Source of the DNA: Devosia neptuniae
GTDB taxonomy: Bacteria > Pseudomonadota > Alphaproteobacteria > Rhizobiales > Devosiaceae
DNA: 64,000 nucleotides
Reading direction: 5' to 3'
Assembly: GCF_025452235.1 (NCBI RefSeq)
Contig: NZ_CP104965.1
Location: forward strand, 2,724,501-2,788,500
The position numbers and the translations under genes were made by a program. Under the pieces are notes generated by a model, which was given only the letters and a program-made list of their open reading frames with translations, made no database searches and had not been told where the DNA came from. This document shows, one piece after another, positions 51,418 to 63,649 of this stretch. The stretch's first letter is position 1, and every line of letters starts with the position of its first letter.

Positions 51418-52601
51418 CGGCCCACCAGCACGCCATTGGCGGCGACCACCAGGCCAGCCTTCATCACCATGCGGCGTGCGGGGCGCGTGGCGACGGCCTC
51501 GGCGGTTGAGTTGGCACTCATCAAGACGAGATCGGCGGGTTGGCCCTCGGCAATGCCATAGGTTGTGACGCCAAGGGCGCGGGCGGCGTGATGGGTTGCC
51601 ATATCGAAGGTCAGGGCAATATCGGCATCGGCCAAGAGGCCCTGCCGATAGCCGATCAGCATGGCGCGTTCCAGCATGTCGCCATTGCCATAGGGCGCCC
51701 AAGCGTCGCGGATATTGTCCGATCCGGTAAACACTGTAACGCCGGTTGCGTGCAGGCGCTTGACCGGCGGCATGGGGACGGGGCCGGGGCCATTGGTCAT
51801 GATCGCCACGCCTGCGCCGGCCAAAGCCTCGAGCGTTGGCCCGATGTCGAGCGGTTCGCCCAGGCAAAAGGCGTGGCTGACGGCGACGCGGCCGCCCAAT
51901 CCAGCGGCTTTGGTTCGTGCGGCGATATCGGTCAGTTCAAAAAGGCCCAGCAGGCCGCCATCGTGCAGGTGGATATCGATGCCGGCGCCGTGCTTTTCGG
52001 CGAGGCTGAACACCACGTCGAGATGGCCGCTGATATCGCCATCGATCCCTGCCGGATCGAGCCCGCCAATAAGGTCCGCGCCATTGCTTAGGGCGGCATC
52101 GAGCAACTCGGCTGTGCCGGGATCGCGCAGAATGCCGCTTTGCGGAAAGGCCACGATTTGCAGATCGATCAGCCTGGCATAGCGCTGGCGCAGGGCGAGC
52201 AATTGCTCAAGATGGGCGAGACCGATTTCGGTGTCGATATCGACATGGCTGCGCACCAGACCCGTGCCGAAGGGCACGATCTGTTCGATCAGTTTTGCGC
52301 CGCGTTCGAGCACGGGTAGCGTGACCGAGCGGCGCAGCTGCTTTTCGCGCTCGATCCGCTCGCCGACGCTATCGCCGGGCAGATGCGAGATGAAGGGCAG
52401 GCCCAGCAGCGTCTTGTCGAGATGGATATGGCCCTCGACAAAGGAGGGCGCCAGCAATAGCCCGGTGCCCGGCACCAATTCCGCCGTGTCCGCCGTTAGC
52501 GTGTTTGGCCCCGCAATCCTGGTGATGCGGCCGCCGCTGACCAACACATCGGCGCGATCGCCGCTGGGTAGCATCACATCGGAAAATAGCGTCGTGCTCA
52601 T
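51414..52601 (-). CDS. CodA/AtzC-type amidohydrolase (aminohydrolase)
   Basis: A 395-residue metal-dependent amidohydrolase related to cytosine deaminase and N-isopropylammelide aminohydrolase AtzC. The metal pair is His58/His60 in EGHIHLDKT; DIHLHDGGL and VSHAFCLG supply later His, and FTGSDNIRDAWAPYGNGDML retains the metal Asp, unlike the paralogue at 47089. It should deaminate or hydrolyse a nitrogen heterocycle. It overlaps its neighbours on both sides by four bases (GTGA downstream, ATGA upstream), showing tight coupling. Confidence 0.9.
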   Translation of the reverse strand: MSTTLFSDVMLPSGDRADVLVSGGRITRIAGPNTLTADTAELVPGTGLLLAPSFVEGHIHLDKTLLGLPFISHLPGDSVGERIEREKQLRRSVTLPVLERGAKLIEQIVPFGTGLVRSHVDIDTEIGLAHLEQLLALRQRYARLIDLQIVAFPQSGILRDPGTAELLDAALSNGADLIGGLDPAGIDGDISGHLDVVFSLAEKHGAGIDIHLHDGGLLGLFELTDIAARTKAAGLGGRVAVSHAFCLGEPLDIGPTLEALAGAGVAIMTNGPGPVPMPPVKRLHATGVTVFTGSDNIRDAWAPYGNGDMLERAMLIGYRQGLLADADIALTFDMATHHAARALGVTTYGIAEGQPADLVLMSANSTAEAVATRPARRMVMKAGLVVAANGVLVGR

Positions 52602-54034
52602 GAAGCGACCGCGCTGGCTGGGGCGAAGTGGACTTTGTCGTAGCGATCGAGCGCGTGGTAATGCGCCTGCGCGTCGGCCAGGAACAGGCCGCGGGAAATC
52701 CCTGCGACGATCTTGGGCACGCCGGATTTGAGCCCGGTTATGCCATTGCAGACCGGGCCGAGGCTGGGGACAGCGCCGTGGTTGAACACATGGATATTGC
52801 CCAGGATGGGCGCGGCACCCGGCACTTTTTCGGTGAATTCGAAGGCTGGGCCGAGGAAGGGATAGGCCAGAAGGGCTGGGTCTTCTTCGCCGGGTGGGGC
52901 GGTGAAGCGGTCCTTCCAGAGCGCGATTTCGTCCACCAGCCCGGCCAGTTCGGGCCGTCGGGCCAGATCGATGGAATAGCCGGTGCCCAGCAGCAAATGG
53001 TTGAAGCGGTAGCGCTCGCCACTATCGGCGGTGAGCGTGATGGCGTCGCCTTCCAGCTGTGCTGCGCCGGTTCGCGTGCCAAGCACCAGACGGCAATTGG
53101 GGAAGCCCATGGCGAGCTCGTACATGGCGATGGTTGGCGGGGTTTTGAACGAGAGCAGCCGCCGCGCGAAGCGGTAACGTTGCAGGTCGTCGAGGTCGGA
53201 AAAATGGTTGAGGAAGCCCGGGAAATTGGACCAGTCCAGCACTTCGGTCTGCGGCAGCGCCTGGCTCCGCGCTAGTACGGTAACGCTGCGCGCGCCGGCT
53301 TCCAGCGCCGTCACCGCCCAATCAAAGCCTGAGGCGGCGGCGCCAATCACACCGACATCCTTGCCCGCCAGCGTTGTTGCGTCGAAGGCCTCGCCGCTAT
53401 GGGTCCAGCGCTCGCGCGGCAAGGCGCCGATTATGGCATCGGGGATGTGCAGGCCGCCCGATCCTTCCATGCCGGTCGCCAGCACCACTTTGCGGGAGGT
53501 CAGTGTTTCGGCTGCGCCGTTGTGGTCGAGCCGCAGGGTGATCAGCCCATTGGGGCCTTCTTCGATGGCCAGCAGCCTTGTGTCATTGCGGATATCGAGC
53601 CCGATGACGCGGCGGAACCAGATGAGATAGGCCATCCAATCCTGCCGGGCGATCATCTCAAGGCTGGTCCAACTCTGGGGGCCATGCACGGCCTCGTGCC
53701 AGGCGCGATAGGTGAGCGAGGGCAGGCCCAGATCGGGGCCGGTCAGCGTTTTCGGCGAGCGCAGCGTGCGCATGCGCGCCGTGGTGATCCACGGGCCTTC
53801 CTGCCCTTGCGCGGCCGCATCGAGCACCAGCACATTGCCGACGCCCTGCTGCTTGAGCCCGAAGCCGATGGCGAGCCCTGACAGGCCCGCACCGATGATG
53901 ACGACGTCCCGTACCAGCTCGCCCGAGGGCAGGGTGCGCGGCGGCACCCATTGGCGCAGCGGCTTTTCCACCAGCGCCAGGTCGCTGAGCGCGCGGGCTT
54001 CCAGCGCCATCAAGGCAGGGGTGAGACCGGTCAT
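52598..54034 (-). CDS. FAD/NAD(P)-binding monooxygenase-like protein
   Basis: A 478-residue flavoprotein with two dinucleotide folds: VVIIGAGLSGLAIGFGLKQQG (FAD, GxGxxG at 48-53) and VGVIGAAASGFDWAVTALEAG (second fold, near residue 230). VVLATGMEGSGGLHIPD and LLLGTGYSIDLARRPEL resemble flavin-containing or Baeyer-Villiger monooxygenases, but no clear FxGxxxHxxxW/Y fingerprint is seen. It is first gene of the left operon, divergent from the importer across 440 bases, so it may carry out the first oxidation of the substrate. Confidence 0.87.
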   Translation of the reverse strand: MTGLTPALMALEARALSDLALVEKPLRQWVPPRTLPSGELVRDVVIIGAGLSGLAIGFGLKQQGVGNVLVLDAAAQGQEGPWITTARMRTLRSPKTLTGPDLGLPSLTYRAWHEAVHGPQSWTSLEMIARQDWMAYLIWFRRVIGLDIRNDTRLLAIEEGPNGLITLRLDHNGAAETLTSRKVVLATGMEGSGGLHIPDAIIGALPRERWTHSGEAFDATTLAGKDVGVIGAAASGFDWAVTALEAGARSVTVLARSQALPQTEVLDWSNFPGFLNHFSDLDDLQRYRFARRLLSFKTPPTIAMYELAMGFPNCRLVLGTRTGAAQLEGDAITLTADSGERYRFNHLLLGTGYSIDLARRPELAGLVDEIALWKDRFTAPPGEEDPALLAYPFLGPAFEFTEKVPGAAPILGNIHVFNHGAVPSLGPVCNGITGLKSGVPKIVAGISRGLFLADAQAHYHALDRYDKVHFAPASAVAS

Positions 54035-54474: not shown

Positions 54475-55770
54475 ATGACCAAGGTTTTTCCCACTTCGCT
54501 TCTATGCCGTGCCAGCATTCTCGGTGTTGGGTTTGCGGCGCTCATGGCTTCGACCACGCTGGCGCAGGACAAGCCGCTGGCCGGGGTGACGCTGACGCTC
54601 GCCTCTCAGAATGACCAGTTCGGCGCCGTGCTCGCCAAGCTGGCGCCAAAGTTCAAGGAAGACACCGGCGCCGATCTGCGGGTCGAAATCCTCAGCTATG
54701 GCGAGCTGCTGACCAAGACGACCGCCGATTTTATCGGCGACACCAAGGGCTATGATCTGGTCACCATGGATATCGTGTGGGCCGGGCAATATGCCGAAAA
54801 CGGCTATTCGGTCGATCTGACCGATTGGGTTAAGCGCGACGCCGCCGAGATGGACCTGGACGATATCTACCCGGTGCTGCTCGAAGCTTTGGGCCAATAT
54901 GAAGGGCGCTACGTCGCCTTCCCCTTTGCGGGCTATGCCAATGTGCTGGCTTATCGCAAGGACCTGTTCGAGGCCGCGGGTCTCAAGGTGCCCACCACGA
55001 CCGAAGATTTTGTGGCCGACGCCAAGGCGCTGACCGATCCGGCCAAGAACCAGTATGGTTTTGTCGCCAATGGGCAGATGGGCCCCGCCGTCGCGCAGGA
55101 TTGGATGCAGTATAATAGCCAGCTCGGGGGCTCCATCATGGGCGCCGATGGCAAGCCGGCGCTGAATTCGGCCGAGAACGTGCATAGCCTTGATGTCTAT
55201 AAGGAGCTGTTTGCCGATACCGCTCCTCCGGGCGCCATCGAATATGATTGGGGCGGACGCGAGGAGAGCTTCCGCCAGGGCCTAGTCGCCATGATGCAGA
55301 CCTGGTCGGTCGGCGCGCCTGGCTATAGCGACCCCGCCGTCTCCAATGTGGTGGGCAAGGTGGGCATTGCCACGGCGCCCGTCGCGGAAGGGCTTGAGCC
55401 CCGCTATGGCGTGGGCGGCTGGGGCATGGCGATCAATGCCGATATCACGCAATCCCAGCAGGAAGCGGCCTGGACCTTCATCAAATGGCTGACCAGCAGG
55501 ACCATCCATAAGGAATTCAATATGGAAGGCGCCGGCTCGTTCATGCGCAAAAGCGAAATGACCGACCCGGACCTGCTGGCCAAGTTCGATTTCCTGCCCG
55601 TCATCGCCAAGACCTACGAAAACGGCAATGGCGAATACCGGCCGCGTATCCCGCAGTATCCCGAATTGCAGGACCTGCTGGGGACTGCGGTGAACTCCGT
55701 GCTGGCTGGGGCGGCAGAGCCGCAGGCGGCGCTGGACGAAGCTCAGGCCAAGGCTGAAGAGCTGTTTTAG
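54475..55770 (+). CDS. ABC substrate-binding protein, sugar (CUT1) type
   Basis: A 431-residue periplasmic family 1 binding protein. The signal peptide ends TTLAQ, near residue 31. VTLTLASQNDQFGAVLAKLAPKFKEDTGADLRVEILSYGEL and GYDLVTMDIVWAGQYAENGYSVDLTDWV are typical of the maltose/glycerol-phosphate-type proteins, and the C-terminus has VGGWGMAINADITQSQQEAAWTFIKWLTS. It heads the right operon. The partner genes suggest a nitrogenous or glycosylated ligand even though the family mostly binds sugars. Confidence 0.92.
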   Translation: MTKVFPTSLLCRASILGVGFAALMASTTLAQDKPLAGVTLTLASQNDQFGAVLAKLAPKFKEDTGADLRVEILSYGELLTKTTADFIGDTKGYDLVTMDIVWAGQYAENGYSVDLTDWVKRDAAEMDLDDIYPVLLEALGQYEGRYVAFPFAGYANVLAYRKDLFEAAGLKVPTTTEDFVADAKALTDPAKNQYGFVANGQMGPAVAQDWMQYNSQLGGSIMGADGKPALNSAENVHSLDVYKELFADTAPPGAIEYDWGGREESFRQGLVAMMQTWSVGAPGYSDPAVSNVVGKVGIATAPVAEGLEPRYGVGGWGMAINADITQSQQEAAWTFIKWLTSRTIHKEFNMEGAGSFMRKSEMTDPDLLAKFDFLPVIAKTYENGNGEYRPRIPQYPELQDLLGTAVNSVLAGAAEPQAALDEAQAKAEELF

Positions 55771-55859
55771 TCCCGATCCTCGGCTCCCCGCACTCGCTGC
55801 GGGGAGCTCTCGCGACGGCCCGTGGCCGCCCAGTTATGCCCAGCAAGGCGGAATTTCTT

Positions 55860-56834
55860 ATGAGCCAGTCCGGTGTGATCGACCAAGAGGATGGTGCTTT
55901 GCCGCAGAGCAAACCTGCCCGCCGCCGATTGCCGTTTTCTGGCTCCTATACCGACAATCGCCGCCTGTTCCTGTTCTGCCTCGGCGCGCCCGCTGTGCTC
56001 TATGTGCTGGTGGTCGGGGTGTGGCCGCTGGCGCAGGGCGTCTGGTACAGCTTTTTCGACTACAATCTGCTCAAGCCCAACCGCACGAAGTTCGTGGGGC
56101 TCGATAATTATTTCGATATCTTTGCCGATCGCTCGGCGCGCCAGGCCATTCTCAACACGTTCCAGTTCACTATTTTCAGCGTCGCCATTCAGCTGGTGCT
56201 GGGGTTTGGGCTGGCGCTGCTGCTGTGGCGGGATAGCCGTTTCAACCGGATATGCCTGGCTTTCCTGTTGATCCCGGCCACCATCACGCCGCTGGTGGTG
56301 GGCCTGATCTACAAGGCCCTGCTTGGCGCCGATTATGGGCTGATCGGCTATTTCCTGGCCAATGCGGGCATTGGTCCGCGCACCGGGTTGATGACCGATG
56401 GCAGCACGGCGCTGTGGACGCTGATCCTGATCGATTGCTGGGAATGGACGCCGCTGATGGCGCTGATCCTGCTGGCGGGCCTCAAATCGCTGCCATCCGA
56501 TGTGCTTGAAGCCGGGCAAGCTGATGGCGCGACGAGCTTGCAGCGCTTCACCATGCTGATCGTGCCGCTGATGCTGCCCTCGATCTTTCTCGCACTGGTG
56601 CTGCGCACCATGGATGCCTTCCGGGTGTTTGACACGGTCTATGTGACGACCGGGGGCGGACCCAATGATGCGACCAACACGCTGATGCTGCTGGCGGTCA
56701 AGCAGGGGTTGCAATTCTTCAATGTCGGCTACGCCTCGGCCATCGGCAATGTGACCATCCTGTTCATTGCCATCATGGCGGGCGTGCTGATTTTCTGCGT
56801 GCGGCGCGCCGATGTGCGCATCAATGGGCGGTGA
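55860..56834 (+). CDS. ABC permease, MalF/UgpA type
   Basis: A 324-residue permease with six or seven helices and the CUT1 EAA loop (LKSLPSDVLEAGQADGATSLQRFTMLIVPLMLPSI). FDTVYVTTGGGPNDATNTLMLLAVKQGLQFFNVGYASAIGN is a strong MalF-type segment. ATG 55860 has AAGGCGGA seven bases upstream and is preferred to the in-frame ATG 55836. It forms the membrane channel with the following permease, four bases away. Confidence 0.92.
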   Translation: MSQSGVIDQEDGALPQSKPARRRLPFSGSYTDNRRLFLFCLGAPAVLYVLVVGVWPLAQGVWYSFFDYNLLKPNRTKFVGLDNYFDIFADRSARQAILNTFQFTIFSVAIQLVLGFGLALLLWRDSRFNRICLAFLLIPATITPLVVGLIYKALLGADYGLIGYFLANAGIGPRTGLMTDGSTALWTLILIDCWEWTPLMALILLAGLKSLPSDVLEAGQADGATSLQRFTMLIVPLMLPSIFLALVLRTMDAFRVFDTVYVTTGGGPNDATNTLMLLAVKQGLQFFNVGYASAIGNVTILFIAIMAGVLIFCVRRADVRINGR

Positions 56835-56838
56835 AGCG

Positions 56839-57660
56839 ATGAGCAAGATTTCCCAGCGCCATATCATTGCCGAGCGCAGCGCCCTCATCGTCATCACCGT
56901 GCTGTTCCTGCTGCCGGTCGCCTGGCTGATCGCCACGGCCTATAAGCCCTCCAACCAGATTTTCAGCGTGCCGCCACGGCTCGATTTCACTCCGACGCTG
57001 GATCAATTCCGCTCGGTCATGTCCTATTTCGATGTGGCTTCGCTCACCCGCTCCTCGCTGATCATCAGCCTCGGCGCGGCTTTTCTCTCGCTGCTGCTGG
57101 GCGTGCCGGCCGGCTATGCGCTGGCGCGTTCGCGCTCACGGCTGGCCAATGGCGTGGCCTATTTCTTCCTCGCCATCCGCATGGTGCCGGCCATTGCGGC
57201 GCTGATCCCGTTTTACCTGATGATGCGCGATGTGGGCCTGTTGGGCAGTTGGTGGGCCGTCATCATCATCAACACCATGCTCAACTGCGCCTTCGTCACC
57301 TGGATGATGTTCTCCTATTTCCGGGCGCTGCCCAAGGACATGGAAGAGGCGGCCATGACCGATGGCTGCACCCAGTTCGGCGCGTTTTTCAAGGTCGCCG
57401 TGCCGGCGGCGCGTTCGGGCATTATCGCCTGCATCCTGTTCTGCGTCATGTTCTCCTGGAACGACTTTTTATACCCCATGTTTCTCACCAAGCTCGATTC
57501 CAAGCCGCTGTCGGTGGCGCTGCTCACCGCCTATGGCACCAAGGACATCACCTGGGGCACGCTGGGCGCGCTGGCGCATTTTTCCACCGTGCCCATCGTG
57601 CTCATGGCGCTCTTTCTCAATCGATATTTCGTTCAGGGCGCGACCAATGGCGTTCAATGA
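56839..57660 (+). CDS. ABC permease, MalG/UgpE type
   Basis: A 273-residue second CUT1 permease. An N-terminal helix is followed by TAYKPSNQIFSVPPRLDF, the core includes VPAGYALARSRSRLANGVAYFFLAIRMVPAIAALIPFYLMM, and the EAA loop is FRALPKDMEEAAMTDGCTQFGAFFKVAVPAARSGI. FSWNDFLYPMFLT is the usual late helix. ATG 56839 is four bases after the preceding stop; GTGAAG upstream is a weak binding site. Confidence 0.92.
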   Translation: MSKISQRHIIAERSALIVITVLFLLPVAWLIATAYKPSNQIFSVPPRLDFTPTLDQFRSVMSYFDVASLTRSSLIISLGAAFLSLLLGVPAGYALARSRSRLANGVAYFFLAIRMVPAIAALIPFYLMMRDVGLLGSWWAVIIINTMLNCAFVTWMMFSYFRALPKDMEEAAMTDGCTQFGAFFKVAVPAARSGIIACILFCVMFSWNDFLYPMFLTKLDSKPLSVALLTAYGTKDITWGTLGALAHFSTVPIVLMALFLNRYFVQGATNGVQ

Positions 57661-57684
57661 GCCGACACTGCGGGGACTGCCGAC

Positions 57685-58821
57685 ATGGCCCAGATAATCT
57701 TCGAGCGCGTTTCCAAGACCTATGAAGGCGGCCATTCGGCCGTAAACGAGCTGGATCTGGAAATCGCCGATGGCGAATTCATGGTGCTGGTCGGTCCCTC
57801 GGGCTGCGGCAAATCCACCGCTCTGCGCATGATTGCGGGGCTTGAGGACATTACCGGGGGCCGGTTGATCATCAATGGTGAAGTGGCCAATGAGCTAGCG
57901 CCGCGCGACCGCAACATCGCCATGGTGTTCCAGTCCTACGCGCTTTATCCGCACCTGACGGTCGCGGAAAACATCGCCTTCGGTCTCAAGGTGCGGCGTG
58001 TCCCGAGGGAAGCGATCGAGGCAAAGGTGCGCGAGACAGCGGCGCTGCTCGAACTCACCGATTTCCTCAATCGGAAGCCGGCCAAGCTATCGGGCGGCCA
58101 GCGTCAGCGCGTCGCCATGGGCCGCGCTTTGGTGCGTTCGCCCAATGCCTTTTTGATGGATGAGCCGCTGTCCAATCTCGATGCCCGCCTGCGTGGGCAG
58201 ATGCGGGCCGAGATCGCCAAGCTGCAACGGATGACGGCGGTGACCACGGTCTATGTCACCCATGACCAGGTGGAGGCCATGACCATGGGCCACCGCGTTG
58301 CCGTGATGAACAAGGGCCGTTTGCAGCAGCTCGACACGCCGCGCCGGCTCTATGACAAGCCGGTTAATCTGTTTGTCGCCAGCTTCATCGGCTCGCCGCC
58401 CATCAACTTTCTCAAAGGCACTTTGCGCAGTCTCGACGGCGGCCTGGCGGCGCAGACCGGCGCCTTCACTTTGCCGATCGTGGGCAGGGAAGGGATGAGC
58501 GTCGGGCAGGCTGTGGTCATCGGCATTCGCCCCGAGGCATTGCGGCTGGTGCCGCAGATGGCGCCTACCGGTGGGCTCATGGCGCGCGCTGCCTTTGTCG
58601 AGGATTTGGGCGCGACGCTGCTGGCCCATCTCGATATTGCCGATGCCGAAGTGGTGTCGCCCGGCGTGATCGAGCAGGAAGAGGACCTGCATGCCATCCG
58701 CCCCCGGTTGCGGGTCGTGCTGGATGGCGGGCTCAACATTATCAGCGGGGAAGCGCTGTCCTTTGCGGTTGATCCAGCTGCCATCCATGTGTTCGACGCC
58801 GCGTCCGGCATGGCGCTTTGA
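57685..58821 (+). CDS. ABC importer ATPase, MalK/UgpC type
   Basis: A 378-residue ATPase. Walker A is GPSGCGKST at residues 37-45, signature LSGGQRQRVAMGRALVRSP, Walker [17 protein letters not shown], switch VTHDQVEAMTMGHRVAVM. The C-terminal third is the regulatory/TOBE domain with FIGSPPINFLKG. It completes the CUT1 importer. The hydrolase gene begins one base after its stop, tying uptake to degradation. Confidence 0.94.
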   Translation: MAQIIFERVSKTYEGGHSAVNELDLEIADGEFMVLVGPSGCGKSTALRMIAGLEDITGGRLIINGEVANELAPRDRNIAMVFQSYALYPHLTVAENIAFGLKVRRVPREAIEAKVRETAALLELTDFLNRKPAKLSGGQRQRVAMGRALVRSPNAFLMDEPLSNLDARLRGQMRAEIAKLQRMTAVTTVYVTHDQVEAMTMGHRVAVMNKGRLQQLDTPRRLYDKPVNLFVASFIGSPPINFLKGTLRSLDGGLAAQTGAFTLPIVGREGMSVGQAVVIGIRPEALRLVPQMAPTGGLMARAAFVEDLGATLLAHLDIADAEVVSPGVIEQEEDLHAIRPRLRVVLDGGLNIISGEALSFAVDPAAIHVFDAASGMAL

Positions 58822-58822
58822 C

Positions 58823-59494
58823 ATGAGCGATTTCTGGCCCGAGATCGCGCCAGCGCGCCGCAGCGCCATGGCGTTGCTGATCATCGATATGCAGGTCGAT
58901 TTCTGCGCCCCCGGCGGCTGGGTCGACCAGCTGGGCGAAGATGTCAGCAATACGCGCGCCATGATTGCCCCGATCCAGCGCGTGCTTGCCGCCGCGCGTG
59001 CGGCTGGGATCACGGTCATCCATACGCGCGAAGGGCACAAGCCGGACTTGTCCGATCTGCCTGCCAACAAGCAATGGCGTACGCGTGTCCATGGCCTGGG
59101 CATTGGCGATATGGGTGCCGCTGGCCGTATTCTGGTGCGTGGGGAACCGGGCTGGCAGATCGTGCCGGAGCTGGCGCCGATCGAGGGCGAGTTGATCATC
59201 GACAAGCCCGGCAAGTCCTCGTTTTACGCCACGGACCTGGAAGAGCAGTTGCAGGCACGCGGCATAGACCGGCTGGTCATTGTCGGCGTCACCTCCGACT
59301 GTTGCGTGCAATCGACCTTCCGTGATGGCTTTGAGCGGGGTTTGGAATGCGTGGTGCTCGAAGACTGCACCGCGGCTGTCGAGACCGCCAACCACGCCGC
59401 CGCCATGGATATTCTCAAAGCCTATGGCGGTCGCTGGGGCGGCGTCTCCAATACGGCCGGCTTCACCGCCATGCTCGAGCACGCTGATGCCTGA
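58823..59494 (+). CDS. biuH: Biuret hydrolase-like cysteine hydrolase (isochorismatase superfamily)
   Basis: A 223-residue cysteine hydrolase. The triad is visible as Asp22 (LLIIDMQVDFC), Lys128 (IIDKPGKSSF) and Cys161 (VTSDCCVQST). The Asp-Lys-Cys spacing (106 and 33 residues) equals that I recall for Rhizobium biuret hydrolase (D36, K142, C175). HTREGHKPDLSDLPANKQWR and RGEPGWQIVPEL also match that enzyme. RutB-type ureidoacrylate hydrolases are close relatives, so another ureide is possible. Biuret hydrolysis yields allophanate, the substrate of the AtzF-like enzyme two genes on. The stop overlaps the next start by eight bases. Confidence 0.85.
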   Translation: MSDFWPEIAPARRSAMALLIIDMQVDFCAPGGWVDQLGEDVSNTRAMIAPIQRVLAAARAAGITVIHTREGHKPDLSDLPANKQWRTRVHGLGIGDMGAAGRILVRGEPGWQIVPELAPIEGELIIDKPGKSSFYATDLEEQLQARGIDRLVIVGVTSDCCVQSTFRDGFERGLECVVLEDCTAAVETANHAAAMDILKAYGGRWGGVSNTAGFTAMLEHADA

Positions 59495-60050
59495 CACGTT
59501 TCCAACTATTGCCGCTAATCCCTATGCCTGGCCCTTTGATGGCCAATGGAATGCCGCTGACACCGCACTCCTCCTCCTGGGCTTTCACGAGAGCACTGTC
59601 CGTAACGTTGGTGCCCAAAGTGAGCTTGCCGTCGCGATGGGGCTTGCCGATCTGGCCCACAGTCTCGGCATTGCCGTGGTGGTGTCGCAGCGGGCTGCGG
59701 AGGCGCTGGTTTCAGACCTTGCTCTGTATCGGTCGAAAGCTGTGCAGCATCGCGGCGACAATGCGTTTTTTGGTACCCAGCTCGAAGCCGATTTGCGCCA
59801 GCGTGGCACCCACAATCTGCTGATCGCGGGCCTGCCGACTGATGGCTTGGTCCACGCCACTCAGCGCACTGCCAATGACATGGGGTTTGAATGCCTGCTG
59901 GTATCCGACGCCAGCAAGGCCACTAGCCCCGCTCGCCACACCGCGCAATTGCGCATGACTACTTTCGGCAACGGCCTGTTCGGCGCGGTAGCCGACAGCG
60001 CCGCCATCCACGCCGCGCTGGCTCCTCAGGGGAATTTACACCATGCTTGA
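59487..60050 (+). CDS. Catalytically dead paralogue of the biuret hydrolase-like protein
   Basis: A 187-residue protein of the same superfamily. It keeps the biuret-hydrolase-type N-terminus (ANPYAWPFDGQW), the core strands and the LLIAGLPTDGLVHATQRTANDMGFECLLVSDA region. The triad is gone: Asp becomes Gly32 (LLLLGFHE), Lys becomes His88 and Cys becomes Leu121. About 40 residues forming the substrate lid (HTREGH...) are missing. Yet the frame is intact and overlaps both neighbours by eight bases, which indicates selection as a protein. It may be a structural or regulatory partner of the active hydrolase or of AtzF. Confidence 0.85.
   Translation: MPDTFPTIAANPYAWPFDGQWNAADTALLLLGFHESTVRNVGAQSELAVAMGLADLAHSLGIAVVVSQRAAEALVSDLALYRSKAVQHRGDNAFFGTQLEADLRQRGTHNLLIAGLPTDGLVHATQRTANDMGFECLLVSDASKATSPARHTAQLRMTTFGNGLFGAVADSAAIHAALAPQGNLHHA

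Positions 60051-61968: not shown

Positions 61969-63649
<1,681 letters not shown>

Follow-up and report, generated by a model that had tools for sequence, protein, structure and literature searches.

A conserved, catalytically dead isochorismatase-like protein as the probable non-catalytic subunit of a two-subunit amidohydrolase

The window, a 64-kb stretch (64,000 nucleotides) of the Devosia neptuniae genome, encodes an isochorismatase-like (IHL) protein that has lost its catalytic residues, directly behind a paralogue that has kept them. The dead protein, encoded by the open reading frame at 59487-60050, is called here subunit b, and the product of the adjoining upstream gene (58823-59494) subunit a; all coordinates are those of the window. 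We consider it likely that b is the non-catalytic subunit of a two-subunit isochorismatase-like amidohydrolase and that one of its loops shapes the active site of a. The pair is most likely a nitrogen-releasing ureide hydrolase, with b as its dead half. An implication is that two isochorismatases annotated beside AtzF do not necessarily amount to two enzymes, or to biuret breakdown.

The genes stand in an operon-like order, in which a sugar-type ABC transporter (54475-58821) is followed by a, b and AtzF, with a divergent FAD oxidoreductase gene upstream (Table 1). AtzF scores above the cut-offs of two NCBIfam allophanate hydrolase models (704 and 659 bits). Over residues 32-431, the substrate-binding protein is matched by 5iai (E = 2e-227), a ribitol-bound structure whose ligand would hint at the compound imported.

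Table 1. Features of the locus, in window coordinates
Feature	Position	Strand	Basis or remark
FAD-dependent oxidoreductase, divergent, conserved neighbour	52598-54034	-	24/26 loci
Sugar-type substrate-binding protein	54475-55770	+	PF01547; 5iai match
ABC permease 1	55836-56834	+	24/26 loci
ABC permease 2, true start may be later	56812-57660	+	24/26 loci
ABC transporter ATPase, UgpC/MalK-like	57685-58821	+	ATPase of this cluster in 25/26 loci
Subunit a, catalytically complete BiuH-like IHL protein, 223 aa, Asp22/Lys128/Cys161	58823-59494	+	PF00857, 8e-48
a loop Tyr201-Gly-Gly-Arg204, aligned to BiuH Gln215-Val218	59423-59434	+	Arg at Val218 position 40/40
a/b overlap, 8 nt	59487-59494	+	Sequence
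Subunit b, catalytically dead IHL protein, 187 aa + stop	59487-60050	+	PF00857, 1.4e-15
b Gly32, aligned to BiuH Asp36	59580-59582	+	HMM alignment
b His88-Asp91, aligned to BiuH Lys142-Lys145	59748-59759	+	HMM alignment
b Leu121, aligned to nucleophile Cys175	59847-59849	+	HMM alignment
b dimer helices (BiuH alpha4/alpha5 equivalents) and intervening strand	59850-59966	+	Regional dN/dS, conservation, helix roles as described in PMC5806882
b partner loop GNGLFG, aligned to BiuH Gln215-Gly220	59967-59984	+	99% mean pairwise identity, 27 rows
AtzF, allophanate hydrolase, 609 aa	60043-61872	+	NCBIfam models; 4gyr, E = 1e-144
TetR-type regulator, possible regulator	61969-62625	+	Relative in L040 only, of 26 loci; not a conserved neighbour

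Conservation of subunit b and loss of its catalytic residues

Subunit b has the domain and fold of an IHL protein, as judged from its membership in the Isochorismatase family PF00857 and from an AF2 model with a pLDDT of 92.4 and a pTM of 0.89. As the original prediction held, it aligns with its BiuH-like neighbour, the two sharing 29% identity over 129 columns (E = 1e-16), far above chance. The Asp36-Lys142-Cys175 triad of BiuH, which marks an active IHL enzyme, is replaced in b by Gly32, His88 and Leu121, the residues named at the outset, and the HMM alignment to BiuH agrees with that assignment.

Residue states were read from one HMM-alignment column per residue in 40 loci, the window included and nine twice-fetched loci dropped; the same 40 carry both a and b. 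In b, the Asp36 position is Gly in 34 loci and Asp in six. The Lys142 position is His in 31, Cys in three, Phe in two, Ile in two, Leu in one and Val in one, and is never Lys, while the Cys175 position is Leu (28), Ile (5), Ala (5), Met (1) or Ser (1), and never Cys. The expectation that homologues always lack the triad is therefore nearly right, holding for Lys and Cys in all 40 and for Asp in all but six. As to a cysteine at another triad position, three of the 40 loci (L041-L043) have one at the Lys142 position. All 40 b proteins have Asp at the Lys145 position, Gly at the Gln215 position and Leu at the Val218 position. The lid, said earlier to be deleted, is shortened, with about 26 of its alignment columns missing in the window and in the conspecific locus L004, but the other homologues retain a divergent lid segment, with shorter gaps in some.

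The a proteins present the opposite picture at the triad. Subunit a of the window keeps Asp22, Lys128 and Cys161, and the triad and Lys145 are retained in 40 of 40 loci. Its Gln215 position is occupied by Phe (22 loci), Tyr (13), His (4) or Asp (1), and its Val218 position by Arg in every case. On the NCBIfam BiuH equivalog, which has a cut-off of 370 bits, a scores 294.8 bits and b 103.4 bits. The description of a as biuret-hydrolase-like is thus apt as far as its likeness to BiuH goes, although its score and the missing Gln215 suggest that it is probably no standard BiuH.

The gene for b is conserved and real, and is not a decaying copy. Its reading frame is open in 40 of 40 loci, and that of the window is free of frameshifts, as first noted; in another genome of the same species (G076) the gene is 90% identical. 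The ratio dN/dS was computed for 38 locus pairs, each with a dS of 0.05-1 in both genes; the pairs share loci and so are not independent. For b the median is 0.259, against 0.145 for a; AtzF (35 pairs) gives 0.117 and the binding protein (33 pairs) 0.070, so that b evolves faster than the other three. A ratio near 1 had been named as the sign of decay; with a median of about 0.26 and values below 1 in all 38 pairs (range 0.14-0.62), and with Lys and Cys absent throughout, the maintained non-catalytic role that was originally proposed is supported.

Constraint within b is unevenly distributed. The dimer helices and loop (b residues 122-166) have a dN/dS of 0.081 in b and 0.077 in a, and are the most constrained part of b. 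The corresponding values are 0.156 and 0.150 for the stretch between the Lys and Cys positions, 0.254 and 0.173 for the N-terminal part, 0.372 and 0.146 for helix 2 and the lid, and 0.464 and 0.308 for the C-terminus. Mean pairwise identity over 27 rows of b follows a similar course, at 99% for the GNGLFG loop, 89% for the alpha4 equivalent and 76% for the alpha5 equivalent, with 33-39% for the helices at residues 35-41, 44-59 and 76-84. The old site is itself partly constrained, GDNAF (residues 90-94) being 97% and the loop that once held the Cys (116-123) 83% identical. Because these two motifs and the Lys-to-Cys stretch are constrained, it is possible that b retains a ligand pocket.

The association of b with a is strict. 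With b as the query, the window's own genome gave three matches, namely b itself, a and one more distant IHL protein, and among the 136 genomes of the family sample close homologues of b occur in the window's genome and four others. A scan of one genome per species yielded 163 loci that encode a relative, and the best 80 of these were retained for analysis. Within those 80, the b family comprises 26 loci (L040-L065), 47-90% identical and all recorded as alphaproteobacterial; the remaining 54 show at most 37% identity and are mostly ordinary BiuH. Subunit a lies directly upstream in 26 of the 26 loci, and in 40 of 40 of the deduplicated set. AtzF lies downstream in 23 of the 26, being missing there in L049, L050 and L056, and the genomes of L049 and L050 each gave a single AtzF match at E <= 1e-60, located elsewhere and 46% identical. 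The idea that b always sits between biuH and atzF is therefore right as to a BiuH-like upstream gene and too strong as to AtzF. Further loci in the order a-b-AtzF are found on Rhizobium plasmids, and the transporter genes are differently arranged in some loci (e.g., L037, L038, L051 and L052). In Rhizobium beringeri TP37 (L035:1873-9427), a and b have open frames, while those of the binding protein, ATPase and AtzF are each broken in two, through either genuine disruption or sequencing error.

When 397 genomes of the window's order were surveyed, a second branch of six b proteins (L126-L131) came to light; these retain Asp but carry His at the Lys position and Ala or Ser at the Cys position. 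The 12 best matches to a model of a come from the same 12 genomes that bear a window-type b, and the next-ranked matches inspected (L193-L200) are standard BiuH in eight of eight cases. Eighteen matches inspected below the b list consist of 16 BiuH, one pair in which a is dead (L147) and one odd protein, a divergent IHL on a long branch with Glu-Asn at Gln215-Gly216 and Asn at Lys145 (L145:1072-2169). A standard BiuH, with the Asp, Lys and Cys of the triad as well as Gln215, accompanies the window-type pair in ten of the 12 genomes (L201-L210); a search for one in the genome of the window found none.

Overlaps of 8 nt had been pointed out on both sides of b, and both are real in the window. 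The a/b overlap is conserved: in the 25 loci measured by candidate start codons (all of L040-L065 but L054), it spans 8 nt in 22 and 4 nt in three. No such conservation is seen between b and AtzF. Within L040-L065 these two genes overlap in L040 (by 8 nt) and L051 (by 11 nt), and 19 loci have gaps of 4-105 nt instead; no start was assigned for this spacing in L045 and L065, and no AtzF follows b in the three loci named above.

A proposed two-subunit enzyme and its alternatives

In BiuH and TrtA, the active site is reported to take a glutamine (Gln215 and Gln202, respectively) from the neighbouring subunit, at the last dimer helix (PMC5806882, PMC7948467). We infer that a and b form a physical heteromer along the same lines. 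Subunit a would supply the working Asp-Lys-Cys site; b would retain the fold and most of the BiuH-type dimer face, and its GNGLFG loop, which comes after the last dimer helix, would be inserted into the active site of a, as the neighbour's residues are in BiuH and TrtA. Subunit b would then be needed to shape that site, would probably also stabilise a, and the product of the pair would feed AtzF. The strict pairing of the two genes, the strong constraint on the dimer helices and loop of b, the loss of catalytic residues in either partner (see below), the retention of b where AtzF does not follow and the conserved short a/b overlap all count in favour of b as a partner of a. As a counterpoint, helix alpha2 of BiuH (95-102) is also described as part of the dimer interface (PMC5806882), and that region is the segment lost or changed in b.

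The substrate is probably another ureide rather than plain biuret, because the residue at the Gln215 position, which in BiuH grips the far end of biuret, is Gly in b and Phe, Tyr, His or Asp in a, so that neither chain brings the glutamine in any of the 40 loci; the score of a below the BiuH cut-off points the same way. The presence of AtzF behind b points to a product resembling allophanate. Biuret is nonetheless a possible substrate, above all in the organism of the window, which has no standard BiuH among its matches, and a could possibly work alone as a homodimer. Riboflavin breakdown was considered as a role for the operon, given the host genus Devosia and the match of the binding protein to 5iai; the word isochorismatase is absent from the main text of the lumichrome pathway paper, as far as that text was covered (PMC12746152). 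Among the entries seen in one open-access library, judged by title or the start of the abstract, there was no paper on a comparable dead or heteromeric IHL protein, and one that concerns isochorismatase and a pseudoenzyme (PMC4207490) is, from the part covered, unrelated.

There are several other possible scenarios for b. That it is an assembly chaperone or stabiliser of a, which leaves the active site or never touches it, is unlikely in our judgment. The model for such a protein is AtzG, described as a non-catalytic obligate partner in a related pathway, without which AtzE is insoluble (PMC6219798), and the a/b overlap suggests coupled synthesis; however, conservation in b peaks in the loop for the partner's site, beyond what folding help alone would need, and catalytic residues have been lost in either partner. 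It is improbable that b acts as a homodimeric ligand-binding sensor or regulator of the operon. The fold of b is kept, as are the Asp at position 145, GDNAF and the former Cys loop, but helix 2 and the lid, which would have to close the pocket, are among the least constrained parts, and a free-standing sensor sits poorly with the strict pairing of b with a. The same conserved motifs, together with His at position 142 in 31 of 40 loci and Asp at 145 in all of them, could be read as a migrated or different site (e.g., His88/Asp91) that catalyses another reaction. We think this very unlikely, since Lys142 and Cys175 are both gone, nine of the 40 have Cys, Leu, Phe, Ile or Val in place of His at position 142, and helix 2 and the lid are relaxed.

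The earlier suggestion of a chaperone or scaffold fares worst where it makes b a partner or scaffold of AtzF, which we find hard to credit: AtzF does follow b in most loci, but it is absent behind b in three, the single AtzF match of two of these genomes lies elsewhere, and the b/AtzF overlap is unconserved. The evidence, which is that of sequence comparison, favours b as the dimer partner of the upstream enzyme. Finally, a decaying copy would explain why b evolves faster than its neighbours and has lost its lid in the window's lineage, but it is already contradicted by the open frames, the dN/dS values and the patterned constraint.

Pairs with both sites intact, b dead or a dead

The a and b proteins form separate clades. 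In a careful tree of 70 IHL proteins, built without five long rows and with the BiuH rows thinned, a (21 rows) joins the first genes of the pairs L075, L078, L101 and L147 with support of 97/90, and b (21 rows) joins the second genes of the same pairs with support of 100/99. The dead b proteins sit on a long stem in this tree, for which treekit issued a warning that long branches meet. In a quick tree of 86 rows, with 22 BiuH/TrtA rows drawn at random and the other family rows thinned, the a clade was unresolved. L150 and L211 are absent from both trees.

Both triads are intact in four pairs, from Falsigemmobacter (L075), a Rhodobacteraceae genome (L078), a Salipiger plasmid (L150) and genome G806 (L211). 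L078 and L150 are close relatives, with a proteins 89.6% identical, so the four pairs represent fewer than four lineages. Intact pairs thus occur in Rhodobacterales (L075, L078 and L150) and G806, and the dead b of the window type in Hyphomicrobiales. The Salipiger pair (L150:15001-24353) lies among genes for a peptide-type ABC transporter, an amidase, an AtzG-like protein, AtzE and HpxZ, a neighbourhood that points to ureide or oxalurate breakdown. In two further loci, one of them a MAG, a is dead and b intact: in L101 (the betaproteobacterial MAG) and L147 (G454, from the window's order), Ala replaces the nucleophile Cys of a, with Asp and Lys retained. These pairs (L101:2963-4338 and the frames at L147:518-2178) are a mirror image of that in the window.

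The Gln215 position of the b loop is Gly in all four intact pairs, and Leu or Arg in the pairs in which a is dead. Since the Gly is already present in intact pairs, the change in the loop seems to precede the loss of catalysis, and from tree and motifs together we infer that the heteromer predates the death of b. In addition, the change of Lys145 to Asp in b is accompanied by that of Val218 to Arg in a in all 40 loci, and neither is found in the four intact pairs. This swap would fit a requirement for a salt bridge in the dead site; on the tree it is one or two events, not forty. We regard as evenly balanced the broader proposal that a and b are an old obligate IHL heteromer with two composite active sites, each drawing on both chains, and that some lineages have abandoned one site and some the other, both being intact in the rest.

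Actinobacteria may have evolved a comparable dead subunit a second time. In three actinobacterial loci (L069:8366-8983, L088:8240-8956 and L115:8480-8998), a degenerate IHL gene precedes a standard BiuH gene and overlaps it by 4 nt. Ala occupies the Lys position in all three; the Cys position is Thr in L069, Cys in L088 (by alignment) and Gly in L115; and the Asp position is Gly in L069 and unaligned in the other two. The C-terminal dimer part, with EMSGGIFG, is conserved and the front is variable. A model of the L115 protein reached a pLDDT of 84.8 and a pTM of 0.85, from 15 rows of which 12 were active-type relatives. In the quick tree, which included the actinobacterial rows, the long branches joined, and a plasmid search with the actinobacterial form gave no record covering 80% of the query.

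Intact, b-dead and a-dead forms of one pair all occur in bacteria, as small soluble proteins with solved relatives; if the proposal is true, they make up a natural series leading from a homo-oligomeric enzyme to a one-site heteromer. The order of events, a change in the shared loop and then the loss of catalysis, is directly testable in this pair.

Comparison with known systems

Eukaryotic parasites supply the best-described cases of a dead paralogue completing a live enzyme. Within the IHL family, BiuH of Rhizobium leguminosarum 3841 (6AZO) is reported to be a homotetramer with a full triad and Gln215 in every subunit (PMC5806882), whereas b lacks the triad and neither a nor b has Gln215. TrtA resembles the present case in being an IHL paralogue of BiuH encoded nearby, whose site is completed by the neighbour's Gln202; it differs in being itself active and eluting as a homodimer, according to its description (PMC7948467), b being dead and tied to a.

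The 1-carboxybiuret hydrolase AtzE/AtzG was the comparison made in the original prediction, and it remains apt as to role, because AtzG is described as a small non-catalytic obligate partner of an amidohydrolase that acts before AtzF (PMC6219798). It does not extend to descent. AtzG derives from GatC and AtzE from GatA (PMC6219798), so that AtzG is no degenerate paralogue of its partner; b is an IHL protein beside an IHL enzyme, and is thus no member of the AtzG family.

A parallel to the proposed mechanism lies in the prozymes of trypanosomatids, in which a dead paralogue of deoxyhypusine synthase or AdoMet decarboxylase forms a complex with the active subunit and activates it (PMC3663545, PMC5201418). 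Subunit b is likewise a paralogue of its active partner and, by its residues, dead. The prozymes belong to other folds and organisms, and both complex and activation are reported for them (PMC3663545, PMC5201418), whereas for a and b both are proposed from sequence; and unlike in the prozymes, either subunit is found dead in different genomes here. By analogy, b is best read as a bacterial counterpart of the trypanosome prozymes.
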